Below, one piece after another: positions 170-13,468 of a stretch of 13,468 bases of DNA (its first letter is position 1; each line of letters begins with the position of its first letter). Made by a program: the position numbers and the translations under genes. The notes under the pieces were generated by a model that was given only the letters and a program-made list of their open reading frames with translations, did not search any database and was not told the origin of the DNA. This DNA is from Desulfobacterales bacterium. Lineage in GTDB: Bacteria > Desulfobacterota > Desulfobacteria > Desulfobacterales > Desulfobacteraceae. The stretch spans positions 1 to 13,468 of the forward strand of contig JAKSAU010000968.1 of NCBI GenBank assembly GCA_022361535.1, written 5' to 3'.

Positions 170-218
170 AAAAAGAATTACTTAAATGAATTACTTAGTT
201 GCTAAGTAATTCTTTTTT
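170..218 (-). terminator. A/T-rich hairpin terminator at operon end, overlapping the mttB-like stop codon
   Basis: A perfect 11-bp inverted repeat (188-198 with 202-212, 3-nt loop) contains the TAA stop of the last gene (195-197). A second copy of one arm at 175-184 allows an alternative, longer pairing: 170-184 with 203-217, 15 bp, with a run of T at the end of the leftward transcript. Both structures are directly visible. That they end the leftward operon is inference. The + strand reading also ends in six T, so the element could work in both directions. The stem is very A/T-rich, so efficiency is uncertain. Confidence 0.65.
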
Positions 219-1622
219 CCGCATAGCAACAAATTCCAGCAACGCTTTTTCGATTCCGGAATCAATGTATGGCCTTTCATAGGCATCCAGACGGTCTGCA
301 ACTTTTTGTGACGCACACTCATGAACTGCCTTTCCATTGCTTGAAAGCCATTTGGAATAGTCTTTGCGATTAAACAATATAGGCTGGGATAACTGCTTGA
401 ACTGATCAAATGTTTTAGGATGGGTTAGGTATTGTCCGCCGATACCGATATCATGAATCAAATCGGTATCAAAGGAATCAGGGGATAAATCAATCGGACA
501 GATTAATTCTCGAACCGTTTTACAAATTTCTTCATCTATCATCCATTTTTCAAAGCTCATGGAAATGAATGATCCCATCTGTCCACAGGAATGGTAGACC
601 ACATTTACCCCGTTCCTGACCACTGTGCTGAGCATTAATGCACTTTCAGCAAATGCCTGGCCGTCTGGCAAATGTGCATCGGTTAACCCGCCGCCGCATC
701 TGGAAGGCAATTTATAATATCGGGCAAGCTGGGTAGTTGCATTTGCAATCTTAAGGGTTTCAGATGCGCCTACAGCAGATGTCATGGTTTTCATATCCAT
801 AGGTGCTGAGGTGGACCCGAAGACGACAGGGGCACCTGGCGATACCAGTTGAGACAGAACGATTCCTGCCAGAATTTCTGCATTCTGCAGTGCTAAAAGG
901 CTTGGCAAAGAGATAGAACCGCTGGCACCGGCCAGAATCATATTGGTTAAAATTGTCGGCTGATTGTATTCAGCCATAGCGACAATTACCTCGGTTTGCT
1001 CTTCTGAAAACTGCAGGGGTGAGGCTACATTGGCAACCGCGTTCATCACAGGCTTTTGTTTAAGAGCCTCTTTTCCACCAAAAAACAATCCTGCCATCTC
1101 AATGGTGTCCAGGGCTGCTGTAACTGTAGCTGACCCACCGAAAACCGGTTTGTCACAAAACAAAAAGTAGTTGGAAATCATATCCAGATGTGATGTTTCT
1201 GCCGGAATATCATTGGGCTGAACCATAATGTATCCGCCCATATCAAGCTGGTCTGACGTATGAACCAGTTTGCAACAATTTATAAAATCTGCGAGTGTGG
1301 CCGGCCGCTGTGAGCCGTCGGGTTCTGCCACGTTGGGTGCTCCGCCTGTCGGCATAAAGATAAAACTATCTTCTCCAACATCCACACTCTTTTCAGGATT
1401 TCTTGCGTGTATTTTGAATTTGGAAGGTACGGTATCCAGCGCTGCAAGGACTTGTTTTTCGGTTAGAAAAACCTTTGTTCCCTCTGTCTTGATACCGTGA
1501 GAGTTAAATAATCGGGCTGTTTTTTCATGGTTGAAATCCATACCGGTACGGCCAAGAATCTCCATGGAGGCATTGTGAAGCATGTCCAGTTCCTGGCGGG
1601 TAAACGTCTGCATCCGGTCCAT
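195..1622 (-). CDS. MttB-family (trimethylamine methyltransferase-like) corrinoid-dependent methyltransferase, non-pyrrolysine, paralogue 1
   Basis: A 475-residue protein, near full length for the MttB superfamily (about 480-495). Recognisable features are an N-terminal helical start (residues 6-30), the glycine-rich core with a GGGLTDAHLPDGQ segment (309-321) and HSCGQMGSFISMSFEKW (344-360), which aligns with the matching segment of the second paralogue in this operon. Family members move a methyl group from a methylated amine to a cobalt corrinoid protein. True trimethylamine enzymes carry an in-frame amber codon for pyrrolysine. This frame has none, so it belongs with MtgB-type enzymes that act on quaternary amines; that substrate class is inference. 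The ATG start has AGAGGA at 1632-1637. It is the last gene of the operon, 60 nt after the ATPase gene. Overall similarity to the other paralogue looks low outside these core motifs, so the two probably differ in substrate or step. Confidence 0.88.
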   Translation of the reverse strand: MDRMQTFTRQELDMLHNASMEILGRTGMDFNHEKTARLFNSHGIKTEGTKVFLTEKQVLAALDTVPSKFKIHARNPEKSVDVGEDSFIFMPTGGAPNVAEPDGSQRPATLADFINCCKLVHTSDQLDMGGYIMVQPNDIPAETSHLDMISNYFLFCDKPVFGGSATVTAALDTIEMAGLFFGGKEALKQKPVMNAVANVASPLQFSEEQTEVIVAMAEYNQPTILTNMILAGASGSISLPSLLALQNAEILAGIVLSQLVSPGAPVVFGSTSAPMDMKTMTSAVGASETLKIANATTQLARYYKLPSRCGGGLTDAHLPDGQAFAESALMLSTVVRNGVNVVYHSCGQMGSFISMSFEKWMIDEEICKTVRELICPIDLSPDSFDTDLIHDIGIGGQYLTHPKTFDQFKQLSQPILFNRKDYSKWLSSNGKAVHECASQKVADRLDAYERPYIDSGIEKALLEFVAMRKKELLSN

Positions 1623-1682
1623 TTTCTTTTTTCCTCTACCTGTACATGTGTTTCATGCAGAATGTCTTTAATTCAAAGATCC

Positions 1683-3845
1683 TTATTTAGCCAGTGTCAT
1701 CCGCCGGTCGTTTCTTTCCAGGGCCAGTTCGGTAAGCTGTTCTGCCGGAATGTGGCACATAATCTTATGCCCGGATTTAAGCCGCTGGTATGGCGGTTCA
1801 TGGAGTTCGCAAATCCGTCCATTATCCGGAAGCACGTTTCTTCTCGGGCATCGCGTATGAAAATAACAACCCGAAGGTTGGTTCATGGCAGACGGCACAT
1901 CCCCAGATAAAACAATGGATTTTCTTTTTGAACTTGGGTCCGGTATGGGAACCGAGGACAGCAGGGCCTCTGTATAAGGATGATAAGGCGGAGGATATAT
2001 GGATTCAACCGGTCCGAACTCAACCACCTGACCAAGGTACATAACTGCCACAAAATCCGATATAAATTTAACAACACTCAAATCGTGCGCAATAAATATC
2101 ATGGTGGTGCCAAGTTCTTCTTTAATTTCATTTAGAAGATTAAGTACCGCAGCTTGAACAGACACATCCAATGCAGATACCGGCTCATCACAAATAACCA
2201 TAGAAGGCCTTGAAGCCAGAGCCCGGGCAATCCCGACACGCTGTTTTTCACCACCTGACAACTGTCTAGGATACCGATCATAATAGTAAGCAGCCAGTTT
2301 TACCGATCTTAGGAGCCGCTCAACTTCCTGCCGAACCTGTCCCTTGGGAACGGTCTTAAATTTGCGGATAGGTCGTGCAATCTGTTTACCAATGCAATAA
2401 GACGGGTTCAATGTGGAATCCGGATTCTGGAAAACCATTTGCAGCTCCCGGATCAAAGACAGATCCCGTTGTTTTACGGGCATGGTAATATCCAGTCCCA
2501 TTAGATCTGACTTGCCGTCAGTGGGTGTTTCAAGACCGATAATTCCTTTCACCAAGGTTGATTTACCACATCCCGACTCACCAACTACCCCGACGGTACT
2601 GCCTTTTATCACCTTTAAAGAAATATCATCCACAGCTTTGATATGCCTTCGTTTTTCCATACCCAGCATGGCTTTCAAAGATGGATTGCGTTCCTTGTAC
2701 CAGACTTTTAAATTGTCCACGTTGAGAAGCTTATCAACGGTGTCAAAGTCATCATCATCTTCAGGCACATGGACCAGGCTTTTTTTCTGGCCTCTTGCAT
2801 ATTCATCCCAAGGCACTTTTAACGTTTCTTTGCCAAGAAAACACCTTGATTTATGATCCTCACCAATGTCAACAAGTTGTGGATGCTCTTTGTCGCATTT
2901 GGCAACTAAGTTTTTATTTATCAGTCCAATACCGTCTTTGTACCAGTCGCACCTTGGAGCAAAAATACATGAATCTTTAGCCCGTTCTGACGGATGCGGA
3001 ACCCTGCCCCTGATAGACCACAGCCGGTTATTGGTTAAACTGTCTCCAAGCCTGGGAACACAACACAGCAGCCCACGCGTATAAGGATGAGCCGGATTGG
3101 TGAACATCTCATCAATGGGTCCGCGTTCCACCATTTCCCCGCCGTACATGACGCAAAGCCGGTCACTGACCTTGGCCACAACGCCAAGGTTATGGGTGAT
3201 GAAAATGATGCCTGTGTTAAAATCTTTTTTAAGGTCTTCGATAAGTTCCAGGACGGCCGCTTCTACCGTAACGTCAAGTGCAGTTGTCGGCTCATCCATG
3301 ATCAGCAGAGCCGGATTATTTAAAAGCGCCATGGCAATAATAACACGCTGCTGCTGGCCGCCGGAAATCATGTGCGGGTACCGGTTCATGACGTTTGCCG
3401 CATCCGGCATATAGACCCGTTCCAGCATGGCAATACATCTGTCCCAGGCCTCATTACGGGTCATATCCGTATGGGCAGTCAGCACTTCTGAAAGCTGGCT
3501 GCCAAGGGTCAAGGAAGGATTCAAGGCCTGCATGGGATCCTGGTAGACCATGGAGATGTTATTACCCCGAATCTGGCGCAGCTCTTCTTTTGGCGTGCCC
3601 ACCATTTCCTTGCCCATAAACTTGATTGAGCCACCTACCACCCTGCCGTTGGCACCAAGAAAATCCAGGATACCAAAGGCAATGGTACTTTTACCGCACC
3701 CGGATTCACCTACAACACCAACGGTTTCACCCTGATGAACAGTAAAATTCACGCCCCGGACCGCAGGCACATCCCGTTTCCTGGTTTTGTAGGAAATGGC
3801 AAGGTCTGTTATTTCAAGTACAGGTACTTTAGATGTATTTTCCAT
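1683..3845 (-). CDS. Fused peptide/nickel-type ABC transporter ATPase (DppD-DppF in one chain)
   Basis: A 720-residue cytoplasmic protein with two complete nucleotide-binding domains. Domain 1: Walker A GESGCGKST at 46-54, Q-loop Q102, signature SGGQQQ at 161-166, Walker B LLIMDEP at 180-186, H-loop H218. Domain 2: Walker A at 422-430, Q473, signature LSGGEKQ at 529-535, Walker B MVICDEP at 549-555, H587. Both catalytic glutamates are present, so both sites should hydrolyse ATP. Each domain is followed by the Opp/Dpp C-terminal extension with four cysteines (C293, C299, C317, C335; and C660, C666, C679, C697), a pattern known to hold an iron-sulfur cluster in some family members. In E. coli Dpp the two ATPases are separate genes; fusions such as GsiA and YejF are known. 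It powers the two permeases encoded just upstream. The ATG start has only a weak Shine-Dalgarno sequence and lies 110 nt after the DppC-like gene. Confidence 0.95.
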   Translation of the reverse strand: MENTSKVPVLEITDLAISYKTRKRDVPAVRGVNFTVHQGETVGVVGESGCGKSTIAFGILDFLGANGRVVGGSIKFMGKEMVGTPKEELRQIRGNNISMVYQDPMQALNPSLTLGSQLSEVLTAHTDMTRNEAWDRCIAMLERVYMPDAANVMNRYPHMISGGQQQRVIIAMALLNNPALLIMDEPTTALDVTVEAAVLELIEDLKKDFNTGIIFITHNLGVVAKVSDRLCVMYGGEMVERGPIDEMFTNPAHPYTRGLLCCVPRLGDSLTNNRLWSIRGRVPHPSERAKDSCIFAPRCDWYKDGIGLINKNLVAKCDKEHPQLVDIGEDHKSRCFLGKETLKVPWDEYARGQKKSLVHVPEDDDDFDTVDKLLNVDNLKVWYKERNPSLKAMLGMEKRRHIKAVDDISLKVIKGSTVGVVGESGCGKSTLVKGIIGLETPTDGKSDLMGLDITMPVKQRDLSLIRELQMVFQNPDSTLNPSYCIGKQIARPIRKFKTVPKGQVRQEVERLLRSVKLAAYYYDRYPRQLSGGEKQRVGIARALASRPSMVICDEPVSALDVSVQAAVLNLLNEIKEELGTTMIFIAHDLSVVKFISDFVAVMYLGQVVEFGPVESIYPPPYHPYTEALLSSVPIPDPSSKRKSIVLSGDVPSAMNQPSGCYFHTRCPRRNVLPDNGRICELHEPPYQRLKSGHKIMCHIPAEQLTELALERNDRRMTLAK

Positions 3846-3955
3846 AGGCTTTATTTAGTTCTTTTTCCAAACGCACACCCCAAGCTGTGCTTTTGAATGG
3901 TTTTTCAACGTCCGTAGCGTGTCTCGCTTGCGAACTGGTATCATCTGCCTGAAAC

Positions 3956-4873
3956 TTACTGGTATCTCATTGACTCCTCACGAATGCCGTCTGCCAGAAG
4001 ATTCAAGCCTACAACCAGGGAGGCAATGGCCAAAGACGGCCAAAGTGCAGCCCAGGGGCTTCCCATAAGGATAAAAGCACGCCCCTTGGCCACCATGGAA
4101 CCCCAGTCCGGCGATGGTGGGGGCATGCCAATACCTAAAAATCCCAAGGTTCCCATGGCAAAAATGGCATATCCGATCCTGAGCATGGCATCTATGATGA
4201 TAGGGCCGCGCGTGTTAGGAAGGATCTCAACGAACATAATATACCAGGCACTTTCACCACGGGTTTCAGCCGCCCGAATGTATTCGCGGGTTTTTATATC
4301 AAGGGTTAAACTTCGCACCAGACGGGCAATGCCCGGTACACCAACAATGGAAATGGCAATCACGACATTAACAGCGGAAGCACCAATGGCTGCAACAATT
4401 ATAAGATAGAGTAAAATAACCGGTATTGCCATCATTGCATCCAGCAAGCGCATGACAATTTCATCTATCCATCCGCCTTTATATCCGCCGATCAAACCTA
4501 ATGTGGAGCCGATCAACAAGGCGACCAATACGCCCCAGATGGCTGTACCTCCAGGTAGTACAAGCGTTTCAGATACCGGCATGACCACCAGCACCACTCT
4601 TGCGCCGTAAATAAGACGCGCCCAAAGATCCCTTCCCAACTCATCTGTTCCAAGAATATGCTGAGCTGACGGTCCCTGGTTCGGTGCCTTCCAATCCTGG
4701 TCATAAGGGCCGTATTCTGTAAGGTACGGGGCAAAAACTGCCACAAATACCCAGAAAAAAACGATGGCAAGACCTACCATGGCAATTTTTGAGCTATAGA
4801 GTATTGCCAACGCTTCCTTAATTTTCTGTATCCGTGTTCTGCCTTGACTGTTTGTTTCGTTGTTTTCAGGCAT
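3956..4873 (-). CDS. DppC/OppC-like ABC transporter permease
   Basis: A 305-residue inner-membrane protein with a cytoplasmic N-terminus, a first membrane helix at about 29-50, the family hallmark HILGTDELGRDLWARLIYG (72-90) in the first periplasmic stretch, and further helices at about 110-130, 145-165, 167-188, 232-250 and 277-297. The EAA loop that docks to the ATPase is seen at 197-220 (EYIRAAETRG onward). About 13 residues (around SETLVLPGGTAIWG, 101-114) look additional compared with typical members, judged from memory. The start codon overlaps the end of the DppB-like gene (ATGCCTGA, 8 nt), so translation is probably coupled and the two permeases are made in equal amounts. It forms the heterodimeric channel with the DppB-like protein. 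Confidence 0.94.
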   Translation of the reverse strand: MPENNETNSQGRTRIQKIKEALAILYSSKIAMVGLAIVFFWVFVAVFAPYLTEYGPYDQDWKAPNQGPSAQHILGTDELGRDLWARLIYGARVVLVVMPVSETLVLPGGTAIWGVLVALLIGSTLGLIGGYKGGWIDEIVMRLLDAMMAIPVILLYLIIVAAIGASAVNVVIAISIVGVPGIARLVRSLTLDIKTREYIRAAETRGESAWYIMFVEILPNTRGPIIIDAMLRIGYAIFAMGTLGFLGIGMPPPSPDWGSMVAKGRAFILMGSPWAALWPSLAIASLVVGLNLLADGIREESMRYQ

Positions 4874-6164
4874 ACCGTATCCTTGGGTTTAAAAAGGTGT
4901 AAATAATGTCTGCGGCAAGCTGGGTGCCTACGGCAACTGTAACCATAATCATGGCACCGGCTTCAAGCGCATTAAAATCTTTGTAAAGAGCGGACTCCAA
5001 AAGGTATGCCCCAAGGCCGGGGTAGCCGAACACAACCTCTACAATAACAATACCTCCCAGAAGCCAGTTAACATGCAGCATGATCACGGTAATGGGGGCG
5101 ATTAAAGCATTTCGTACCGCATGCTTTAATACCACTTGTTTATAGGGAAGCCCTTTTAAAAAAGCTGTTCTGATATACGGTGATTTCATGACCTCCACCA
5201 TTGACGCCCGCGTGATACGCAGCACATACCCCAATTCGATCAAAGTCAGGGTAAGCACCGGTAAAACGAGCATCATGGGTTTTTCCCAAGGTGCAGCCTC
5301 TCCTAAAATGGATGCACCGGGCAGCCATCCAAGCCACATTGAAAATATCAGTGTTAGAAAAATTCCTGTTGCAAACTCGGGAACCACAGAAAACATCATT
5401 CCGCCGACAGAAAGGACCCTGTCTTTGAAACTGCCTTCACGAAGGCCTGCAATCACGCCTAAAAGCAATGCCAGGGGCATCACGATAACAAATGCAGTGC
5501 CAGCCAGTACCACGGAATTTCTCAACCGAATGTACAGGCTTTTGGATACCGGACGGCCGGTACGAAACGAAATACCTGGATCCCCTCTGATAAATCCTTT
5601 TTTCAATGGAATATACTCTTTAGGGCCGCCGGAAGATTCCATCCAGCCTTTACCCATGATAAAGGTCCAGACTTTTTCCGTATCCCCTTTTACCCAGCGA
5701 ACGGCATGGTTCTGGCGATCTAACCCCCAAAATTCATGGGTGCCGTCTTCTAAAGGAACCCAGCGCTCATTGTCCGTATACTCAGTGCGGGTACCGTCCT
5801 GAGCCATGTTTACTGCTACAATATCGTCTCCTGATATTTTCCATCGAAGCAGACTGCCGTCCTCTTTTACCGCCCACCACTCTTCAAACCCTTCTTTGGT
5901 GGTGATTCGTTTCAACGGCATACCAACCTTGTCCTTTGCAATCCAGTCATTGCCGGCAACCCAATAAAGATAACGGGTTGCCATGGATTTATCCAACCCA
6001 TTTTGTTTGAGAAATGAGGCTTCCTGTTCAGGGGTAATAAAAGCGCCAAGTACGTTCTTGGCAATATTACCCGGAGAGGATTCAGCAATGATAAAGACAG
6101 CCACGGATACGAGAACCATGGTCAATAAAAGCAGCAAAAAACGTCTTAAAATAAAAACAAGCAT
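4866..6164 (-). CDS. DppB/OppB-like ABC transporter permease with a large inserted periplasmic domain
   Basis: A 432-residue membrane protein, about 100 residues longer than usual DppB/OppB (about 306-340). TM1 is at about 8-28; the remaining helices lie at about 216-240, 250-275, 297-320, 353-378 and 402-425. The EAA motif is at 329-358 and the conserved GDPGISFRTGRPV segment at 194-206. Between the end of the normal TM1-proximal region (about 68) and GDPGISF lies a hydrophilic, tryptophan-rich insertion, about 69-192 (bases 5589-5960). By topology it should face the periplasm, next to where the binding protein docks. The insertion contains two similar units about 49 residues apart (92-114 and 141-163). 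The ATG start has AAGGA 5 nt upstream. Permease identity is secure; the role of the insertion is unknown, perhaps contact with the binding protein or substrate gating. Confidence 0.93.
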   Translation of the reverse strand: MLVFILRRFLLLLLTMVLVSVAVFIIAESSPGNIAKNVLGAFITPEQEASFLKQNGLDKSMATRYLYWVAGNDWIAKDKVGMPLKRITTKEGFEEWWAVKEDGSLLRWKISGDDIVAVNMAQDGTRTEYTDNERWVPLEDGTHEFWGLDRQNHAVRWVKGDTEKVWTFIMGKGWMESSGGPKEYIPLKKGFIRGDPGISFRTGRPVSKSLYIRLRNSVVLAGTAFVIVMPLALLLGVIAGLREGSFKDRVLSVGGMMFSVVPEFATGIFLTLIFSMWLGWLPGASILGEAAPWEKPMMLVLPVLTLTLIELGYVLRITRASMVEVMKSPYIRTAFLKGLPYKQVVLKHAVRNALIAPITVIMLHVNWLLGGIVIVEVVFGYPGLGAYLLESALYKDFNALEAGAMIMVTVAVGTQLAADIIYTFLNPRIRYA

Positions 6165-6190
6165 ATATGTCCTTGTTTTTCTAAATGGCT

Positions 6191-6225
6191 ACATCTGCCG
6201 GACCAAAAAAACACCCGGCAGATGT
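6191..6225 (-). other. Intercistronic GC-rich stem-loop between binding-protein and permease genes
   Basis: A perfect 11-bp inverted repeat (6191-6201 with 6215-6225, 13-nt loop) lies in the 74-nt gap after the binding-protein stop. In the leftward transcript no U-run follows it, so it is more likely an mRNA-stabilising or attenuating structure than a full terminator. Similar elements elsewhere raise binding-protein yield over permease yield. A competing A/U hairpin (ACCAAAAACA with TGTTTTTTTGGT) uses the same bases, so the two folds exclude each other. Read on the + strand the stem is followed by five T. Confidence 0.7.
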
Positions 6226-6238
6226 TTTTGGTTTAGAT

Positions 6239-7882
6239 CTATGCCAAGCTGACATTATTGAAAAGCATATATCCGTTGGGATGGCCTTCAAGACCATTAA
6301 CATTAGCTCCTGCTGCCATCCATACAGCACGCCAGTAGGCAATGGCAATCGAGCCTCTCTCATACTGGATCCGTTGCAGGTCACAGAATATCTTGCGCCG
6401 TTTTTCAACATCAAGAGTACCGTTTGCCTTATCAAGAAGCTCGGAGAACTCTTTGTCTACCCAGCGGGACTCATTCCAGGCAACAGGTTTTCCATTTTCA
6501 TCGGCTGTGTAAGCAAGGGTCAGGCACATGGTACCAAGGGGTCTGTGGGTCCAGGGTGTAACACCGAGGTCAACTTCAGTCCATTTTTCCCAGTATTGAG
6601 AGTTGGGCATGGTCTGAATATTAATCCTGAATCCCCCTGCCATAGCATCTTGTTTTAGAATTTCAGCATAGCGGACAATATCAGGCCATCCGGAACCGAC
6701 TGCCAGGTTGACTTCCACACCGTTTGGATATCCCGCTTCTGCTAAAAGTTTTCTTGACCCTTCAGGATCATAGGCAGGCGTTTTGGTAGGACAATACTCC
6801 GGGTGGAGCTGGTAAACGTGAAAGTCTTGCCCTTCAAGTCCCTGGCCCATCTGTGCAAGGGCGAGAATCTTTTCATGGTTGTGACATTTTTTAAGGGCGA
6901 GACGTACTTTTTCATTATCCCATGGTTTCAAGTCTACCCGCATGCGAAGAACGCGGGCAGACCCTGTAGGCGCTGTGAGAATCTGGGCCTTGGGATCATC
7001 TTTCAATGCAAGGTAAATATCAGTTCCTGCAATATCAGACAGGTCGATAAAATCAATGTCGCCGCTCTTCATGGCAGAAATCATGGGTGCGGTTTCCGTA
7101 CCCATATCAATGAATTTCATACCATCCAGATAAGGCAGGGGTTTACCGTCTACCCCTTTACCCCAGTAATCCGGGCGAGCCTTTATAGTTGCAATTTCGC
7201 CTTCACGGTAAGTTTCCAGGACATATGGACCTGTGCCATGTGGCGCTTTGAGAAAATCACCTTCAAAGGTTTTATGGTTAAGAATCTGGGCAGGATATTG
7301 GAAAAGATGTTCAGGTACTGCTATTTCAGATTTGTTCAAATGAAGTTTGACCTGGTGGTCGTTAACCCGCTCAATCCCGTTGGCATCCAGATATCCGCCG
7401 ATCATACCACGCATGGAGGACCCGACCTTTTCATCCAACCACTGTCCCATGGTAAAAATAACATCGTCTGAAGTAAAGGCATCCCCATTATTAAAGGTTA
7501 CGCCTTTTCTTAGATTCAGAGTCCAGGTTTTCAGATCGTCACTGGCTTCCCAATTTTCCAAAAGATAAGGATGAGTGATGTTTTTACCGTCAGTCATTGT
7601 CAGGTATTCTGCAACCTGGCGAGTTACGTTTGAACCTGCAATCCATGAATAGGTCGCAGGATGTGCAATTTTCTGCAGGGCAGTTGCAACACGCAGGGTA
7701 CCGCCACGTTTTACATTGCCTGCAAAAGCTTTTGCAGTCCATGACAGTCCGGCCATCTGGGTCGCAGTAAACGCAGATACGCCGAGCAGGGTTGCCATTC
7801 TAAGGAATTCCCGTCTAGAAAGTTTCCCCTTATCCATGTCACTTTTCAGATCTTGTACTGCTGGGTGCATTTTTTTCTTCAT
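6239..7882 (-). CDS. Peptide/nickel-type substrate-binding protein (SBP_bac_5) with Tat signal
   Basis: The periplasmic solute receptor of the transporter. I place the start at the ATG ending at 7882 (547 residues) because GAGGAGG (7887-7893) sits just upstream; the open frame extends to a GTG at 7927 that has no such signal. The N-terminus carries a twin-arginine motif SRREFLRM (22-29 in this numbering), a hydrophobic stretch and a likely AFA/GN cleavage site near residue 54, so the protein is probably exported folded. Family segments follow: RGGTLRVA at the mature start, a central GTGPYVLETYREGE segment, and the typical YDPEGSRKLLAEAGYPNG. Family members bind peptides, nickel, opines, sugars or other solutes; the ligand is not deducible here. 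The neighbouring methyltransferases suggest an N-methylated compound (inference). The stop is TAG. The 143-nt gap upstream holds a direct repeat CTATTGGTRA (7954-7963, 7988-7997) of unknown meaning. Confidence 0.95.
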   Translation of the reverse strand: MKKKMHPAVQDLKSDMDKGKLSRREFLRMATLLGVSAFTATQMAGLSWTAKAFAGNVKRGGTLRVATALQKIAHPATYSWIAGSNVTRQVAEYLTMTDGKNITHPYLLENWEASDDLKTWTLNLRKGVTFNNGDAFTSDDVIFTMGQWLDEKVGSSMRGMIGGYLDANGIERVNDHQVKLHLNKSEIAVPEHLFQYPAQILNHKTFEGDFLKAPHGTGPYVLETYREGEIATIKARPDYWGKGVDGKPLPYLDGMKFIDMGTETAPMISAMKSGDIDFIDLSDIAGTDIYLALKDDPKAQILTAPTGSARVLRMRVDLKPWDNEKVRLALKKCHNHEKILALAQMGQGLEGQDFHVYQLHPEYCPTKTPAYDPEGSRKLLAEAGYPNGVEVNLAVGSGWPDIVRYAEILKQDAMAGGFRINIQTMPNSQYWEKWTEVDLGVTPWTHRPLGTMCLTLAYTADENGKPVAWNESRWVDKEFSELLDKANGTLDVEKRRKIFCDLQRIQYERGSIAIAYWRAVWMAAGANVNGLEGHPNGYMLFNNVSLA

Positions 7883-7886
7883 TCTT

Positions 7887-7893
7887 CCTCCTC
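7887..7893 (-). promoter_or_regulatory. Strong Shine-Dalgarno deciding the binding-protein start
   Basis: GAGGAGG on the minus strand, separated by AAGA from the ATG at 7880-7882. It favours this ATG over the in-frame GTG 45 nt upstream and puts the Tat motif at a usual distance from the N-terminus. Confidence 0.85.
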
Positions 7894-8025
7894 TTTTGTT
7901 GTCCTTTGATTTTGGTCGGTCGGACACAGTAATTATGGTGGTAGGATGTATTGCTATTGGTAAATCTCTTTTAGAGTTAACGGCCTCCTATTGGTGAGTT
8001 TATTTATTTTTGCGTAGATCGTCTG

Positions 8026-9333
8026 TTATCCAATGACGGAGAAACTTGAATTCTCGTTTATCTGTCGCTTGCGGCTGAAAAACCCGATGTTTAATGTATG
8101 ATTAATATATTTCATTTTATACTGCAAGGGCTCTTTGTCATGATCATTTCCGCCTTCACAATATTGAATCAGCTCAGACATGAAATCCCCCACAGCCGGC
8201 GCATTTTTATACTGATTTCCTGATGTGCCGATGGCCAGATAAAATCCGGGGAGACAGGATTTGTCATAAATAGGATACCAATCGTCTGACAGGTCATACA
8301 AATCTACGATTCCCTGGGTCTGGTTGGGAATCGGCAGGGACGGAATACGCATGGCTTCTCTCATGGCCTGGGTTTTAGCCTGTATGGTCAAATCCGGATT
8401 AAAGTCATCAGGATCTACATATTCTAACGGATCACATTTAGGTTCTTCACTGCCGATAAGAAAATGGTTACCGGTTTCAGGTCGGGTATAGACCCCGGTA
8501 TCTGAATCAGATGTAATCACACCGTCTTTTTCCCAATCCAGCCCTTCAGGACTTGGCACATGGGCAACTTCAACCCGCAGCGCCCGGGTTTTGATATTCA
8601 TGTCATCCAGGACACCGGCCATTTCATTTATTTTATAAGAATGGGGCCCTGCAACATTTACCACAATTGGGGCATGGATCTGAGTACCGTCAGCAAGTTC
8701 GATACCGGCTGCCCTGCCCTCTTCTTTTAAAATGCCTGTCACTTCAGCATTGAACAGAAAATCGCCGCCAACATTTCTTGTGGCCATCTCCACGTTATGG
8801 GTGGACAATTTCGGATCTGAGACATATCCGGACTCGGGTACATAAACCGCCCCTGTGATGCTGTCACCGGTTGGTTCACCAAATCCATCCTCATCCATGG
8901 TTTTCTGGGGATAAAATGAACGCAGGTCTGGTTTAGGTATGTAGTCTTTCATCTGTTCCGGTGTTAAATCAAGGTAACCAACCCCTAAGCTGTCTAAAGA
9001 TTCCTTTACTTTTTCCAGGTTATCGTTAACATCAGATTTAAAGACCATGGCGCCTGTATTCTTGTAATAGGCCATGCCGTCGGGATCTTCAACACCAAGA
9101 TAGCGGTTCCAATCCAACCAGTAATAGTAGCCTTCCCTTGCCAGGGCCACCCCTTCAGGGGAAGAATAATAAAGCCTGATGATAGCGCAGGAACCGGATG
9201 TAGATCCGAATCCGGACCCACCGAGCTTATCAACACTTAAGGTTTTATAACCTTTACGCGCCAATTCGTAGGCAATGCAGTTACCAATGATACCCGCACC
9301 AATGATAATGGCGTCATATTTTTTTTCTGTCAT
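8026..9333 (-). CDS. DAO-family FAD-dependent amine/amino-acid oxidoreductase (sarcosine oxidase/glycine oxidase-like)
   Basis: A 435-residue soluble flavoprotein. An N-terminal Rossmann motif GAGIIG (12-17) follows the first beta strand and binds FAD; SGSCAIIR (46-53) and VVNVAGPHS (224-232) are typical DAO segments; the C-terminal GFYLAIGTSGNQYKNAPAVG (363-382) closes the flavin site. Family enzymes oxidise C-N bonds of secondary or tertiary amines and amino acids such as sarcosine, dimethylglycine or D-amino acids. The length excludes the two-domain dimethylglycine dehydrogenase, which has a folate domain. No cysteine is seen at the covalent-flavin position of monomeric sarcosine oxidase (the region reads DLYDLSDDWYPIYD, 344-357), so FAD is probably non-covalent. 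In an anaerobe it would act as a dehydrogenase (inference). The ATG lies 7 nt after the methyltransferase 2 stop and its AAGGA overlaps that gene's end, so the two should be co-translated. Confidence 0.9.
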   Translation of the reverse strand: MTEKKYDAIIIGAGIIGNCIAYELARKGYKTLSVDKLGGSGFGSTSGSCAIIRLYYSSPEGVALAREGYYYWLDWNRYLGVEDPDGMAYYKNTGAMVFKSDVNDNLEKVKESLDSLGVGYLDLTPEQMKDYIPKPDLRSFYPQKTMDEDGFGEPTGDSITGAVYVPESGYVSDPKLSTHNVEMATRNVGGDFLFNAEVTGILKEEGRAAGIELADGTQIHAPIVVNVAGPHSYKINEMAGVLDDMNIKTRALRVEVAHVPSPEGLDWEKDGVITSDSDTGVYTRPETGNHFLIGSEEPKCDPLEYVDPDDFNPDLTIQAKTQAMREAMRIPSLPIPNQTQGIVDLYDLSDDWYPIYDKSCLPGFYLAIGTSGNQYKNAPAVGDFMSELIQYCEGGNDHDKEPLQYKMKYINHTLNIGFFSRKRQINENSSFSVIG

Positions 9334-9340
9334 TTTTTAT

Positions 9341-10810
9341 CTATCCTTTTTCAAGTTTGGAAAGGATCTCTTTTTCGCCTTCCTTCTTAAGCCGGTCAAG
9401 TTCTGTAATCACTTTATCGCTCAGTGGTTCCGGCGTATGGTTTTCTTTTATGCTCCTGATTTCATCCAAAACCCGGTCAGCCATAGTAGGACAGCCAGCT
9501 TCCTGCCATGGGCCAATGGCCTGGCGATCCATAAGTTTCGAGACAGATAGTTCCTCTTTAAAATGATCCATGGTATGGGGCTGGACCAAAAAATGCCCTG
9601 TCGGTCCGACATCCTCTATTACCTGGCGAGCCAGGGTTTCCCGTGTTACTTCTATGCCACGCACAAACCTTCGGGCCATGCTGATAACCTCATTGCCCAT
9701 AACCAGTTGTTCAATTGAACATGCCATACCCGCAGCCATATAGCCCACATCGTGAATCAGGTTAAGACCTGACATGCCCTGACTGAGGATCGAAAAGCAG
9801 GATTCTATACCTGCTTGTGCATCAAGGCACTTGGCATCCGTTGCTCCGGCAAGCCCCCATGTGGGAAGATTAAAGGATTTTGCAACCTCGGCCTGTGCAG
9901 CTAATCCTAAGCTGTTTTCAGGTGCCCCCATGGTCATCAGGGCATTGCGCATATCCAAAATGCCGACGTTACCGCTCATGGCAACAGGACACCCTTTATT
10001 GCGAAGCTGTGCGATGGTGATATGAATCAAGGATTCGGCCGTCATCTGGGATATCAAGCCTGCCAGGGTGACAGGTCCTGTCGCACCCGCCTGTACTGTA
10101 GATCCGGGCAACTGGGGCATAAACCTGTCTGCAGCAACGAAGATCCTGTCCACTACATCATTTGGGAAAAACAACGGGGCTATGGCCTCGGGATAAGCAA
10201 TGAGAAAAGGCTTTTCCCTAAGTTTATCCTGCCCGCCTGCAACAACAGCAGCCATTTCATATACATATTCCAGACCTAATGCCGAATATCCTATAAAGAC
10301 AGAGGGTTTAGTTGTATTTGAGACCAGTGCTTCAAATTCATGGACCTCTGCAGCATCCTGGGGTACATCCTGTGCTGATCCCATGGGCATGGCAAAATCA
10401 ATACCGTCAAGAGCATCTGCAACCTTGGCCCCAAGGGCGATATCATCAATGGAAGTGGGCCGAATTTCCCCGGAAAACGGATCCCTGTGATTAGGGCTTG
10501 CCGTAGACGTCCCATAATGACTCTTTTCGCCTTCCACTTCCATGGCCCTTTTTCCGTTCCTGTCATAAATGGTCCAGCCTTTTGGAACTGACACCAGGCA
10601 TTCATTCACGATATATCTGGGAATCTTGATATTATTTCCTTGAATCCAGGCACCAGCCTGCTTCATGAGTTTATGGACCCCTTTATGCTCGCACTTGAAT
10701 CCTACCTTTTCAATGATGTCAAAGGCGGCCTGGCGAATTTCCCAGATCTGGTCATCGGTCAGGATTTTCATTCCTACTGACCGGTTGGTTATATTAGATG
10801 ACTGAATCAC
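9341..10810 (-). CDS. MttB-family (trimethylamine methyltransferase-like) corrinoid-dependent methyltransferase, non-pyrrolysine, paralogue 2
   Basis: A 489-residue protein, full length for the MttB superfamily. Recognisable are the helical N-terminus with IIEKVGF (32-38), the GATGPVTLAG strand-turn (242-251), GLAGATDAKCLDAQAGIES (319-337), HDVGYMAAG (353-361) and the C-terminal PTMADRVLDE (441-450). It should transfer a methyl group from a methylated amine to a corrinoid protein that is not encoded here. There is no internal amber codon. The terminal stop is TAG, but read-through would add only 8 codons before TGA, so it is an ordinary stop. The start is GTG at 10808-10810, chosen because GGAGG lies 7 nt upstream; the internal ATG (residue 14) has a poorer site. 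It is the first large gene of the operon, about 240 nt after a sigma-54 type promoter. The substrate is unknown; an MtgB-like quaternary amine is the best guess. Confidence 0.92.
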   Translation of the reverse strand: MIQSSNITNRSVGMKILTDDQIWEIRQAAFDIIEKVGFKCEHKGVHKLMKQAGAWIQGNNIKIPRYIVNECLVSVPKGWTIYDRNGKRAMEVEGEKSHYGTSTASPNHRDPFSGEIRPTSIDDIALGAKVADALDGIDFAMPMGSAQDVPQDAAEVHEFEALVSNTTKPSVFIGYSALGLEYVYEMAAVVAGGQDKLREKPFLIAYPEAIAPLFFPNDVVDRIFVAADRFMPQLPGSTVQAGATGPVTLAGLISQMTAESLIHITIAQLRNKGCPVAMSGNVGILDMRNALMTMGAPENSLGLAAQAEVAKSFNLPTWGLAGATDAKCLDAQAGIESCFSILSQGMSGLNLIHDVGYMAAGMACSIEQLVMGNEVISMARRFVRGIEVTRETLARQVIEDVGPTGHFLVQPHTMDHFKEELSVSKLMDRQAIGPWQEAGCPTMADRVLDEIRSIKENHTPEPLSDKVITELDRLKKEGEKEILSKLEKG

Positions 10811-11036
10811 GCCTTTTCCTCCGCAATATGTATTTCTTTGGTTAACAGGTGGGTATAAACCCTATTTTCATTCCACTCCATGGATTTATAGAATGCTTCA
10901 ACCGTATACTTACAAGTTTTATTGCTTTTTTAATTTTTAGGTATGTCAGGCCGAGCTGGGGTATGGGTGAGAACGAACACTCGTGTGTATCAAGATCTGC
11001 CTTGAGCAATTGTCCGATTTGTTCCGGCCCTGTCAT
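10807..11036 (-). pseudogene. Possible small leader gene (about 76 residues), apparently frameshifted
   Basis: An ORF starts at ATG 11036, with AAAGG 7 nt upstream and about 12 nt after the predicted sigma-54 transcription start; its frame stops at 10842. A second frame, open from 10929 to a TGA at 10807-10809, reads like a helical protein tail (YTVEAFYKSMEW, then LLTKEIHIAEEKA) and overlaps the GTG start of the methyltransferase as GTGA, a typical coupling junction. One missing base between about 10931 and 10842, for example in the six-A run 10926-10931, would join both parts into about 76 residues. I do not recognise the protein. It could be a decayed gene, a sequencing error in a homopolymer, a programmed frameshift, or chance. 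Confidence 0.42.
10818..10822 (-). promoter_or_regulatory. Shine-Dalgarno supporting the GTG start of methyltransferase 2
   Basis: GGAGG on the minus strand, 7 nt before the GTG at 10808-10810. It lies inside the tail of the possible upstream small gene, which fits translational coupling. Confidence 0.8.
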
Positions 11037-11059
11037 TGTTTTGCCTTTTGTCTGTCTTT

Positions 11060-11075
11060 AGCAAGCCCTTTGCCA
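11060..11075 (-). promoter_or_regulatory. Sigma-54 (-24/-12) promoter of the methyltransferase-transporter operon
   Basis: The minus strand reads TGGCAAAGGGCTTGCT, against the consensus TGGCACRNNNNTTGCW: one mismatch, with exact GG-N10-GC spacing. The predicted transcription start is near 11049, leaving a leader of about 240 nt before methyltransferase 2. Sigma-54 promoters need an enhancer-binding activator; a candidate activator site lies upstream. The motif match is seen; activity is inferred. Confidence 0.82.
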
Positions 11076-11157
11076 TTTTTCCCGGATGAACGCTTTGAAT
11101 AATGCGCTTTGGAAAAAACAACTTTCCTTCTGATAAGGCTCTATCCCATATCTATGA

Positions 11158-11183
11158 TATTGTTACAGATAGGCATAACAATA
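11158..11183. promoter_or_regulatory. Candidate activator (enhancer) site: 8-10-8 inverted repeat
   Basis: Perfect arms TATTGTTA / TAACAATA are separated by 10 bp. The centre lies about 120 bp upstream of the predicted sigma-54 start, the usual position of an enhancer-binding-protein site. It shows TGT-N14-ACA symmetry and so is not the classical NifA TGT-N10-ACA. A smaller inverted repeat (ATATC-TAT-GATAT, 11148-11160) abuts it. The cognate activator gene is not in the window. Confidence 0.6.
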
Positions 11184-11223
11184 AATATCGCAATTTGCAA
11201 ACAAAATACTTTCTTTTTTTAAG

Positions 11224-11235
11224 TTGATATATCAA
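11224..11235. repeat. 12-bp perfect palindrome downstream of the kinase gene
   Basis: TTGATATATCAA is self-complementary and sits about 30 nt past the kinase stop. It may be an operator half-site or a chance A/T palindrome; no T-run follows it in the transcript, so it does not look like a terminator. The rest of 11076-11266 has no ORF, but does hold a direct repeat CGCTTTG (11091-11097, 11105-11111) and a TTTGCAAA palindrome (11194-11201). Confidence 0.3.
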
Positions 11236-11266
11236 TTATAAAAATAGAGATGCTCAAAATTGTCTT

Positions 11267-12721
11267 TTATTCATCAACAATAGCGCTTAGTTTTTCCAGT
11301 ATCGGATCAAAATATGGATTTACCTGCTGATACACTTCCCGGTTAATCCGATCATATATCTTTGTGTTATTAAGATTAGCTTCAAACCTGTCATCGGGAA
11401 CAACCATTTTATCCACAGCTGTTTCATAGGATGTAAACGCATTTACTGCCATACCGGCATTAATAACGCACCCCACAGAAGCAGATCCCTTGATACGATT
11501 GCGAAAGGCTGGCACACCGAACACATCAGCAAAAATCCCCATGAATAAATCACTGTTGGCACCGCCCCCTGAAACAATCAGTTTTTTAACAGGTGTGCCC
11601 AATTCTTTCATCATTTTATCCACATGATTTTTCAAGGTAAAGGCAATCCCCTCAAGAATGGAGCGGTACATATGGCCCCGGGTGTGGCGGCCGTCGAAGC
11701 CGAACATCACCCCTTTACGGAACACAGCTTCTGCCGGAGGTGCCCAATCATGAATTGTAATCAAGCCTTCGCAACCCGGTGGTACAGCTTCTCCCTCGGC
11801 GTTGAACATGTCTTCGACAGACACGCTTTTTTGAGCAGCTTCTTTTGTGACACCATCACCAAATTGATCACAGAACCAGGAAACTGTCCACATGCCGCGG
11901 CGAACCCCCATGCACTCGTAAAGGTATTTGTCCGGCATGGAAGCCTGAAAAGTCCAGAAGTGATTTGCATCTGCAACATATTGCTCACCATGAACCATCG
12001 CTCCTATATACGTTCCCAATGAAATCAGCACTGTACCGGCGTCTAGGCTTCCTGCCCCAAGTGCTTCAACCGCCTTATCATGTGCCGTCGCCACCACCGG
12101 CAATCCCTGGGGCAATCCGGTGACATCACTTGCTTCTTTTGTCACATGCCCTAAAACATCCCCTGGCTTTACCAGATCAAAAAGCATATCAGCAGTCACT
12201 CCGCAGTCCTCAAGTGCTTTTGTGTCTGTTTTCCAGTCAAATGTACGGTCATCAATTGGCCATGCACCGATATAATTTGCACACGTATCTTTGAATTCTC
12301 CGGTCAGTCTGTGGGAGATATAACCGGAGGATGTAGTGACATATCCAACTTCACCGTAGGCAGGAATGTGGCAGTAAGGAGAATTAAGGCGCTTGTCCAT
12401 CCAATTTATCACGGGATATGCAAGAGAACCGTCTTTTTTTAACAACGCCCTGCAGCATCGGATAACACAAAGGCCCATTGCCTGAATATCAACAGGATCT
12501 AAATTCAGTTCGTTAACGAACTGTTTCATGGCTTGCCTAAATGCTTTGGTCAGGGCATCCCATATATCATCTTCGGGATGCTCAGCCAGCAGGGGGGCTG
12601 GTATGGCAAGCTTTTTTAGAGGATGGCACCCCTGGCAGACAATTTCTCCTTCCAGGGTAAAAATCAATACTTTTGCACTCTGGGTGCCCACATCCGCACC
12701 CATTAAATACTTAGACTTCAT
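11267..12721 (-). CDS. FGGY-family carbohydrate/polyol kinase (xylulokinase-like)
   Basis: A 484-residue ASKHA-fold kinase. Seen: phosphate-1 loop GADVGTQSAKVLIF (8-21), the sugar-contact motif WMDKR (107-111), RLTGEF (138-143), a catalytic-Asp region ATAHDKAVEALGAG (211-224, D215), SLGTYIG (234-240) and the adenosine motif SGGGANSDLFMGIFADVFGVP (384-404). Family members phosphorylate sugars or polyols such as xylulose, glycerol, erythritol or autoinducer-2; the substrate here cannot be assigned. Compared with E. coli XylB, the stretch between W-x-D-x-R and the RLTGE motif is short by about 29 residues, in a region that helps shape the substrate pocket, so a non-standard substrate is likely. 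The ATG start is 2 nt after the FAD oxidase stop, with GGAAA upstream, so both belong to one unit. No convincing terminator follows; a sigma-54 promoter starts the next operon. Confidence 0.92.
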   Translation of the reverse strand: MKSKYLMGADVGTQSAKVLIFTLEGEIVCQGCHPLKKLAIPAPLLAEHPEDDIWDALTKAFRQAMKQFVNELNLDPVDIQAMGLCVIRCCRALLKKDGSLAYPVINWMDKRLNSPYCHIPAYGEVGYVTTSSGYISHRLTGEFKDTCANYIGAWPIDDRTFDWKTDTKALEDCGVTADMLFDLVKPGDVLGHVTKEASDVTGLPQGLPVVATAHDKAVEALGAGSLDAGTVLISLGTYIGAMVHGEQYVADANHFWTFQASMPDKYLYECMGVRRGMWTVSWFCDQFGDGVTKEAAQKSVSVEDMFNAEGEAVPPGCEGLITIHDWAPPAEAVFRKGVMFGFDGRHTRGHMYRSILEGIAFTLKNHVDKMMKELGTPVKKLIVSGGGANSDLFMGIFADVFGVPAFRNRIKGSASVGCVINAGMAVNAFTSYETAVDKMVVPDDRFEANLNNTKIYDRINREVYQQVNPYFDPILEKLSAIVDE

Positions 12722-12723
12722 AT

Positions 12724-13468
12724 TTATTTTCCATTATTCATATTTCCGGGATTCAATAAATGTGCATTGGCGCTCAGTTTTATTTGATCTATGATCTGTT
12801 TCTTCCTTAACTTTACAGCCGGACTATACAAAATGTGCTGACTCGTTTTCCCTATGCCGTATACCGGGTATATCAAATAATCATTTGATTGGTTGGTTAC
12901 CCAAAAATCGATCCACTTTTCTGCTTGATCGTATTGTTCAGGGTTTAAGTCTGTCAGCGTTACTCTGAAGCGCCCTCTTCCATAGCTCCCAAATACACAG
13001 GCCTTTAAATCGTTTTCAGAAAGGGTGGATGTCACTCTTTCCAGAACAGGTTGTATGAAACCCGGGTTTATTTCCAAATCCAATGTAAAATATGGTTTTG
13101 AATCAGATAGAGTTTCATTGTCACTCTTTTTTGAATAAAAGAGAGCTGAGACCATGGCTTGATGACGCAAGCTTTCAAATTGTTTTATATCGCCAGCGCC
13201 TGAAAACGCCCAAGAATTTGACGGATCAGCGCCTATTGCGGCTGCCTTATCCGTAATATCAGACAAAAGCGGCTCCATATCCTCGAAACTCTTGCCATGC
13301 ATCCCAATAGCAATGGCAGACCCTTGGGGAATCCGGGCCAATCTCCCTTCTCCAGGACGATCTGCCAGATAGCGGGAAATAAGATCAAGACAGGTTTCAT
13401 CCATATAGTCCAAAGACACCACTTGAGCCGTCGAATCAATAAGGTTGTGGCCTGTTTTGTTTAAATCC
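12724..13468 (-). CDS. FAD-linked oxidase, C-terminal part (GlcD/D-lactate dehydrogenase-like), truncated by window edge
   Basis: The frame stays open to the last base of the window (no stop above the GTG at 13420-13422), so only the C-terminal about 248 residues are visible; the N-terminal FAD-binding PCMH domain would lie outside. Pattern matches to the FAD-oxidase C-terminal domain are SLDYMDETCLDLI (family: leE-mD-xal), a long helix ending QFESLRHQAMVSAL (family: lW-xR), and FGSYGRGRFRVTL (family: GH-x-G-D-G-N-x-H). Family enzymes oxidise 2-hydroxy acids such as glycolate, lactate or 2-hydroxyglutarate, or make alkyl-DHAP. Here both histidines of the GHxGDGNxH metal-binding motif are replaced (Ser and Arg), so it may be an atypical or metal-independent member. 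It is directly coupled to the FGGY kinase, suggesting a shared sugar-acid or polyol route (inference). Confidence 0.75.
   Translation of the reverse strand, partial: DLNKTGHNLIDSTAQVVSLDYMDETCLDLISRYLADRPGEGRLARIPQGSAIAIGMHGKSFEDMEPLLSDITDKAAAIGADPSNSWAFSGAGDIKQFESLRHQAMVSALFYSKKSDNETLSDSKPYFTLDLEINPGFIQPVLERVTSTLSENDLKACVFGSYGRGRFRVTLTDLNPEQYDQAEKWIDFWVTNQSNDYLIYPVYGIGKTSQHILYSPAVKLRKKQIIDQIKLSANAHLLNPGNMNNGK

Follow-up and report, generated by a model that had tools for sequence, protein, structure and literature searches.

Six members of the MttB superfamily are described with an identified physiological substrate, MthB being the sixth, in the available passages of a 2025 paper (PMC12155760). 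There, MtpB, MtcB, MtyB and MthB of Eubacterium limosum are non-pyrrolysine members that demethylate the quaternary amines proline betaine, carnitine, gamma-butyrobetaine and phosphocholine; the word 'histidine' is absent from the main text, and the substrates that it names do not include histidine betaine. In a known bacterial route for ergothioneine, as given in the accessible part of PMC7653990, ergothionase releases trimethylamine and the histidine betaine is broken down, finally to glutamate. We analysed a 13,468-nucleotide stretch of DNA (the window) from a Desulfobacterales bacterium (contig JAKSAU010000968.1), which encodes two methyltransferases of the MttB superfamily (MttB1 and MttB2), a flavoprotein and an ABC importer. 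We give about even odds to a reading in which this putative operon serves to take up an alpha-amino-acid betaine and remove its methyl groups, histidine betaine (hercynine, or ergothioneine in its 2-thio form) being the likeliest substrate. The superfamily, its fold and the principle of demethylation are already known; histidine betaine would be a new substrate. Since the window itself contains no histidine-degradation (hut) gene, we infer the substrate from the gene neighbourhoods of relatives, which point to a small amino-acid betaine feeding histidine degradation and thus suggest a substrate new to the MttB family in a marine-type sulfate reducer.

The window contains seven open reading frames (ORFs) of interest, all on the minus strand and each confirmed in its family by Pfam, listed here in order of transcription from position 10810 to position 195:

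9341 to 10810, minus strand: MttB2, non-pyrrolysine MttB-superfamily methyltransferase of 489 residues (Pfam MTTB, 285 bits; structure model; tree)
8026 to 9333, minus strand: DAO, FAD-dependent oxidoreductase resembling the sarcosine oxidase beta subunit, 435 residues, a proposed N-methyl amine dehydrogenase (Pfam DAO, 144 bits; structure model)
6239 to 7927, minus strand: SBP5, predicted periplasmic binding protein with W-T-H-R at the W-T-G-D site of DppA (Pfam SBP_bac_5, 220 bits; alignment)
4866 to 6164, minus strand: OppB-type permease of 432 residues (Pfam BPD_transp_1_N at 1-71, BPD_transp_1 at 233-430)
3956 to 4873, minus strand: OppC-type permease (Pfam BPD_transp_1 and OppC_N)
1683 to 3845, minus strand: OppDF, fused OppD-OppF ATPase of 720 residues (Pfam, two ABC_tran and two oligo_HPY stretches)
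195 to 1622, minus strand: MttB1, MtgB-like non-pyrrolysine methyltransferase of 475 residues (Pfam MTTB, 409 bits; 36% identity to MtgB)

ORFs and Pfam families agree with the layout given in the initial annotation: methyltransferase, DAO flavoprotein, binding protein, two permeases, fused ATPase, methyltransferase. The intergenic gaps, in order of transcription, are 7, 98, 74, -8, 110 and 60 bp, and these small gaps together with the shared orientation make it plausible that the seven genes form a single operon.

Both methyltransferases score above the cut-off of the MTTB profile (PF06253; 25 bits) and below that of TIGR02369, the model for pyrrolysine trimethylamine methyltransferases (385 and 342 bits; cut-off 525). 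Both ORFs are open, with no in-frame stop and hence no amber codon at the pyrrolysine position, where Ala is found in MttB2 and Leu in MttB1. With 23% identity between them, the two are divergent non-pyrrolysine MttB proteins, as had been proposed from the sequence. MtgB, the glycine betaine methyltransferase of Desulfitobacterium hafniense (2QNE, 9YCE), was compared with both at columns of our own choosing, for which there is no published test: Arg at the Trp318 column, Leu at the pyrrolysine column and an H-x-x-G motif. MttB1 has R, L and HSCGQ at these columns and therefore fits the MtgB type; Met-Pro replaces Gly-Thr at its Gly110-Thr111 columns. MttB2 has W, A and HDVGY, and is not of the MtgB type.

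MttB2 shows 28-29% identity to MtgB (29%) and to the pyrrolysine MttB of Methanosarcina barkeri (7XCL). Its AlphaFold2 model (pLDDT 89.6) has the TIM-barrel fold of these proteins, with TM-scores of 0.93 to MttB (7xcl) and 0.92 to MtgB (9yce); the top nine matches of the fold search were 7xcl, 9yce, 2qne and chains of 7xcn and 7xcm (TMq 0.91-0.93). The roles of Gly110, Thr111, Pyl334 and Tyr364 in MttB were taken from the accessible text of PMC9842639. MttB2 retains the Gly-Thr pair at 110-111, a likeness to MttB and a difference from MtgB, and further differs from MtgB in having Ala rather than Leu at the pyrrolysine column (57 of 76 sequences of the MttB2 clade) and Trp318 rather than Arg. 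Like MtgB, it lacks pyrrolysine and has His at the Tyr364 column (76 of 76 clade sequences); unlike MttB, both window proteins lack pyrrolysine and Tyr364. Two stretches, P-T-W-G-L-A-G-A-T-D and N-L-I-H-D-V-G-Y, form the signature of MttB2. An identical protein is also listed on a contig of 48,179 bases.

The evidence for histidine betaine comes from a survey of 291 genomes of the class, in which MttB2-like proteins (E up to 1e-150) were found at 67 places in 47 genomes. Pairings of HutH (histidine ammonia-lyase) or binding protein with MttB, and the genome-wide HutH counts, were read by eye from match tables; HutH counts are those among the matches listed, so that pairs with a weak HutH may be additional, and neither the P values nor the genome-wide counts take account of kinship. 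At least 9 of the 67 places lie 10 kb or less from HutH, where 0.47 would be expected (Poisson P 2e-9); they belong to 9 of the 47 genomes, one of which carries a protein from the subclade of the window. For a second subfamily, MttB12, at least 13 of 27 places have HutH within 4 kb, against an expectation of 0.12 for a distance of 10 kb (P about 1e-22). HutH occurs anywhere in the genome (E 1e-180) in 40 of the 47 genomes with MttB2, versus 72 of the 244 others. The hut-linked MttB2 genomes are Desulfamplus G002, G004, G005 and G044 (the last counted there by kinship in the tree), G082, G149, G202, G293 and G173 (judged to be Desulforapulum autotrophicum HRM2).

The arrangements differ from genome to genome. 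The HutH gene adjoins MttB2 in Desulfamplus loci L017, L020, L021, L022 and L027, with urocanase and imidazolonepropionase present in all of these except L020; L017 and L027 have the order MttB12-HutH-MttB2-HutC-HutU-HutI with one further ORF. HutU, HutI, HutC or FTCD stand near MttB2 also in L136, L137 and L138, and near MttB12 in L179 and L180. In G082, HutH-AFOR-MttB12 (AFOR, aldehyde-ferredoxin-oxidoreductase-type protein) faces MttB2 and an importer of the window type in a cluster that includes HutH-U-I and FTCD, whereas G149 has MttB2-AFOR-HutH flanked by an SBP5 importer and by HutU-FTCD-HutI, and HRM2 has HutU-AFOR-MttB-HutC-HutH-MttB12, another importer and then MttB2. A search for MttB12 at E 1e-100 found none in G005, G044, G149 and G202, which leaves MttB2 as the predicted demethylase linked to hut genes in these four genomes; two of them, G149 and G202, have an MttB23-type gene as well, at a distance of about 8-9 kb.

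The linked lyases resemble histidine ammonia-lyases (HAL). Of 41 HutH ORFs in the retrieved loci, some of them not MttB-linked, 38 have the Met of HAL as judged by motif, and three gave another string. Ergothionase has Lys at this position. Ergothionase was rejected as the linked lyase, the L017 protein, the one lyase searched, scoring 447 bits to the best HAL versus 222 to ergothionase 6s7j.

A tree of 79 rows was built. Near-identical sequences among 111 MttB2-like rows were discarded for it, which left 75, and sequences that were shorter or more distant were not included. The window MttB2 falls in clade A (42 rows; support 97/93) together with the hut-linked Desulfamplus group; the HRM2 copy is in its subclade of 14 rows (98/78), within a 16-row set supported at 99/94. 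MttB2 and MttB12 have a common active-site signature, W-G at 318-319 and H-D-V-G-Y at 353-357; HDVGY is present in 69 of 73 MttB2 and 24 of 27 MttB12 sequences, as well as in the window protein. The combined signature was not seen in MtgB, pyrrolysine MttB, 17 MttB1-type or 6 MttB23-type proteins compared. All nine full-length binding proteins with at least 76% identity to SBP5 in the 291 genomes, and 15 of 41 with at least 60% (three partial hits, G218, G236 and G192, having been dropped), have MttB2 or MttB12 as a neighbour at a distance of up to about 6 kb. The importer in the hut cluster of G082 is 64% (binding protein), 73%, 80% and 61% identical to that of the window.

The pathway that we propose for the window draws every step from gene content. 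The importer made up of SBP5 and OppBCDF would take up the zwitterion, hercynine perhaps being imported as ergothioneine. MttB2 would then take one methyl group from the trimethylammonium and pass it, by way of a corrinoid protein whose gene lies elsewhere, to a C1 carrier; in the relative locus L036, a gene for a corrinoid protein stands close to MttB2. The DAO flavoprotein would remove the remaining N-methyl groups by oxidation, and the free amino acid, here histidine, would pass to HutH, HutU, HutI and formiminotransferase. In contrast to the ergothionase route, the methyl groups would leave through MttB and not as trimethylamine. MttB1 might act on another betaine, or on the same compound in another form. 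The two paralogues, one MtgB-like and the other not, may also act one after the other, an idea raised in the initial annotation. The DAO model (pLDDT 78.6) has as its six best Foldseek matches the proline dehydrogenase beta chain (1y56_B) and sarcosine oxidases (TMq 0.68-0.72), and thus resembles in fold and family the beta subunit of heterotetrameric sarcosine oxidase and dimethylglycine oxidase. DAO copies of 54-57% identity stand in SoxA-SoxG-DAO-ETF clusters. Such SoxA, SoxG and ETF-type genes occur in L002-L006 and L030, and clusters with DAO relatives also in Desulfamplus G004 and in G026, whereas the window has none of the three. Support was found for the earlier idea that demethylation through a corrinoid, oxidation by a flavin enzyme and import by a dedicated transporter belong together.

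If true, histidine betaine would become the seventh substrate of the MttB superfamily, and its demethylation would offer a trimethylamine-free fate for a betaine that occurs in a cyanobacterium (PMC3826126) and tie corrinoid methylotrophy to amino-acid degradation; the motif combined with gene context gives a direct list of candidate enzymes. Among the papers listed on hercynine, ergothioneine or histidine betaine, corrinoid demethylation of histidine betaine appeared in no title or abstract opening, most subscription papers lying outside the search.

Several observations weigh against histidine betaine as the substrate. Neither a hut gene nor a corrinoid protein gene is present within the 13.5-kb window, and 58 of the 67 MttB2-like places have no HutH within 10 kb among the matches listed. 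As Desulfamplus accounts for four of the nine linked places, the number of independent linkage events is below nine. Support for the subclade shared with HRM2 (98/78) falls short of the thresholds of 95 and 80 set by the tree program, HDVGY is also found in four of seven MttB12-like proteins that are more distant, and MttB2 proteins of group B may have other substrates. As for the importer, 26 of the 41 binding proteins with at least 60% identity, those of Desulfamplus included, lie apart from MttB2 and MttB12, and the importer adjoining MttB12 in HRM2 is a different one (binding protein 27%, W-G-S-R). The substrate could be some other carboxylated betaine, such as glycine betaine, proline betaine or an unlisted one, the hut linkage reflecting a general clustering of amino-acid catabolism. 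We regard this as a serious possibility, though a clearly less probable one. It would agree with the likeness of DAO to sarcosine and proline oxidases, with the many places lacking a listed HutH nearby, and with the substrates of the superfamily, which, save trimethylamine and phosphocholine, are carboxylated quaternary amines in the available passages of PMC12155760. However, the hut linkage is far over chance and occurs in several arrangements, and MtgB is without the signature common to the two hut-linked subfamilies.

A special form of the histidine betaine reading involves the AFOR-type proteins. An AFOR-type ORF is found in 27 of 39 loci with MttB2 relatives. Eight loci (L136, L137, L138, L139, L187, L193, L208 and L210) have it immediately between HutH on one side and MttB2 or MttB12 on the other. 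AFORs near MttB2, MttB12 or HutH, including those of loci without hut genes, have one conserved motif in common, the exceptions being the HRM2 AFOR (45%) and those of L012, L023 and L026, in which the pattern search gave nothing or another stretch. Our plain guess is that the AFOR beside MttB2 may oxidise released formaldehyde; a bold guess is that it desulfurates ergothioneine. On the latter, sulfate-reducing Desulfobacterota would possess a trimethylamine-free anaerobic ergothioneine route, in which imported ergothioneine would lose its sulfur reductively to a tungsten-type AFOR, giving hercynine, the two related corrinoid methyltransferase subfamilies and the sarcosine-oxidase-type flavoprotein would strip the methyl groups, and histidine would enter the Hut pathway. 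Besides the position and motif of the AFORs, a metallopterin-dependent ergothioneine synthase, reported for Caldithrix in the accessible part of PMC9516567, lends this some appeal. Nevertheless we consider both the route and its operation here improbable, as the single AFOR searched matches aldehyde oxidoreductases (AOR and FOR), the hut clusters of Desulfamplus have no AFOR, and the window has none either, with no remnant found in the gap at 10811-11266. Upstream of that gap lie two further genes:

11267 to 12721, minus strand: FGGY kinase (Pfam and NCBIfam)
12724 to 13467, minus strand: ORF truncated by the window edge, with no Pfam or NCBIfam match

An FGGY gene also stands ahead of AFOR-MttB2 in L001 and L035; in the window the corresponding place is a 456-bp gap without AFOR.

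The importer has the gene content of the Dpp/Opp type, namely SBP_bac_5, two BPD permeases and two oligo_HPY ATPase halves. We aligned SBP5 and 30 relatives with DppA, in which we take the Asp of W-T-G-D to hold the N-terminal ammonium of the peptide. The window protein has Arg there (W-T-H-R), which makes a peptide ligand unlikely for it, and W-x-H-R is found in 29 of the 31 aligned binding proteins, the exceptions being L043 and L160. The larger or peptide-like N-methylated compound put forward in the initial annotation on account of the Dpp/Opp-superfamily importer is thus very improbable, the more so as no peptidase family was found among 50 locus proteins scanned, other neighbours lying outside the scan. 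The window OppB carries about 110 extra residues between its N-terminal segment (1-71) and the permease core, and NCBIfam OppB-type models match it best from about residue 182-192. OppB is 432-434 residues long in L035, L036 and L038, and 311 in the hut-linked L137.

Conservation of the gene order, which the initial annotation had proposed as a check, was searched for in the 39 loci, from Desulfobacula, Desulfotignum, Desulfamplus, Desulfosarcina, Desulfospira, Desulfocicer, other Desulfobacterales, and delta- and proteobacteria. DAO directly follows MttB2 in 18 of them, several others being truncated by contig ends. The row MttB2-DAO-SBP-OppB-OppC-OppDF is unbroken in L015 (where the contig ends inside OppDF), L016 and L036, and is present with one extra ORF in L035 (contig ending inside OppDF) and L038 (a fragment only of MttB2). 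L013 has the six genes with a divergent importer (38-48%), in L009 and L012 the same row begins and the contig ends within it, and the Desulfotignum loci L031, L033 and L034 lack DAO. MttB1 follows OppDF in none of the 39, of which only seven (L013, L016, L031, L033, L034, L036 and L038) extend beyond a complete OppDF, nor was it found near MttB2 in these loci. Conservation thus extends over the six genes from MttB2 to OppDF, and no further case of the seven-gene order was seen. Relatives of MttB1 (49-52% identity) lie near MttB2, DAO or SBP5 in three other genomes (L142, L148 and L168), so that the gene set recurs and its order does not.

Judging from the matches, sulfate reducers hold large sets of MttB paralogues: Desulfospira joergensenii, a sulfate reducer, alone has 16 MttB-family matches, and genomes G001 and G006 have 16 and 29, five of them with an in-frame stop, which is always TAG. 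Other genes were seen beside these methyltransferases and importers. A protein of 323-369 residues with C-terminal 4Fe-4S motifs recurs in L035 (7250-8221), L038 (3711-4688) and L137 (11636-12745), its first 260 residues having no Pfam match in L038 and L137. Between OppDF and MttB2 in the hut-linked cluster of L137 lies a gene for a DMSP_lyase-domain protein (PF16867; 4751-5356), and MmgE/PrpD-family genes adjoin MttB12 or MttB23 genes in L142 (3380-4729) and L156 (4468-5811).

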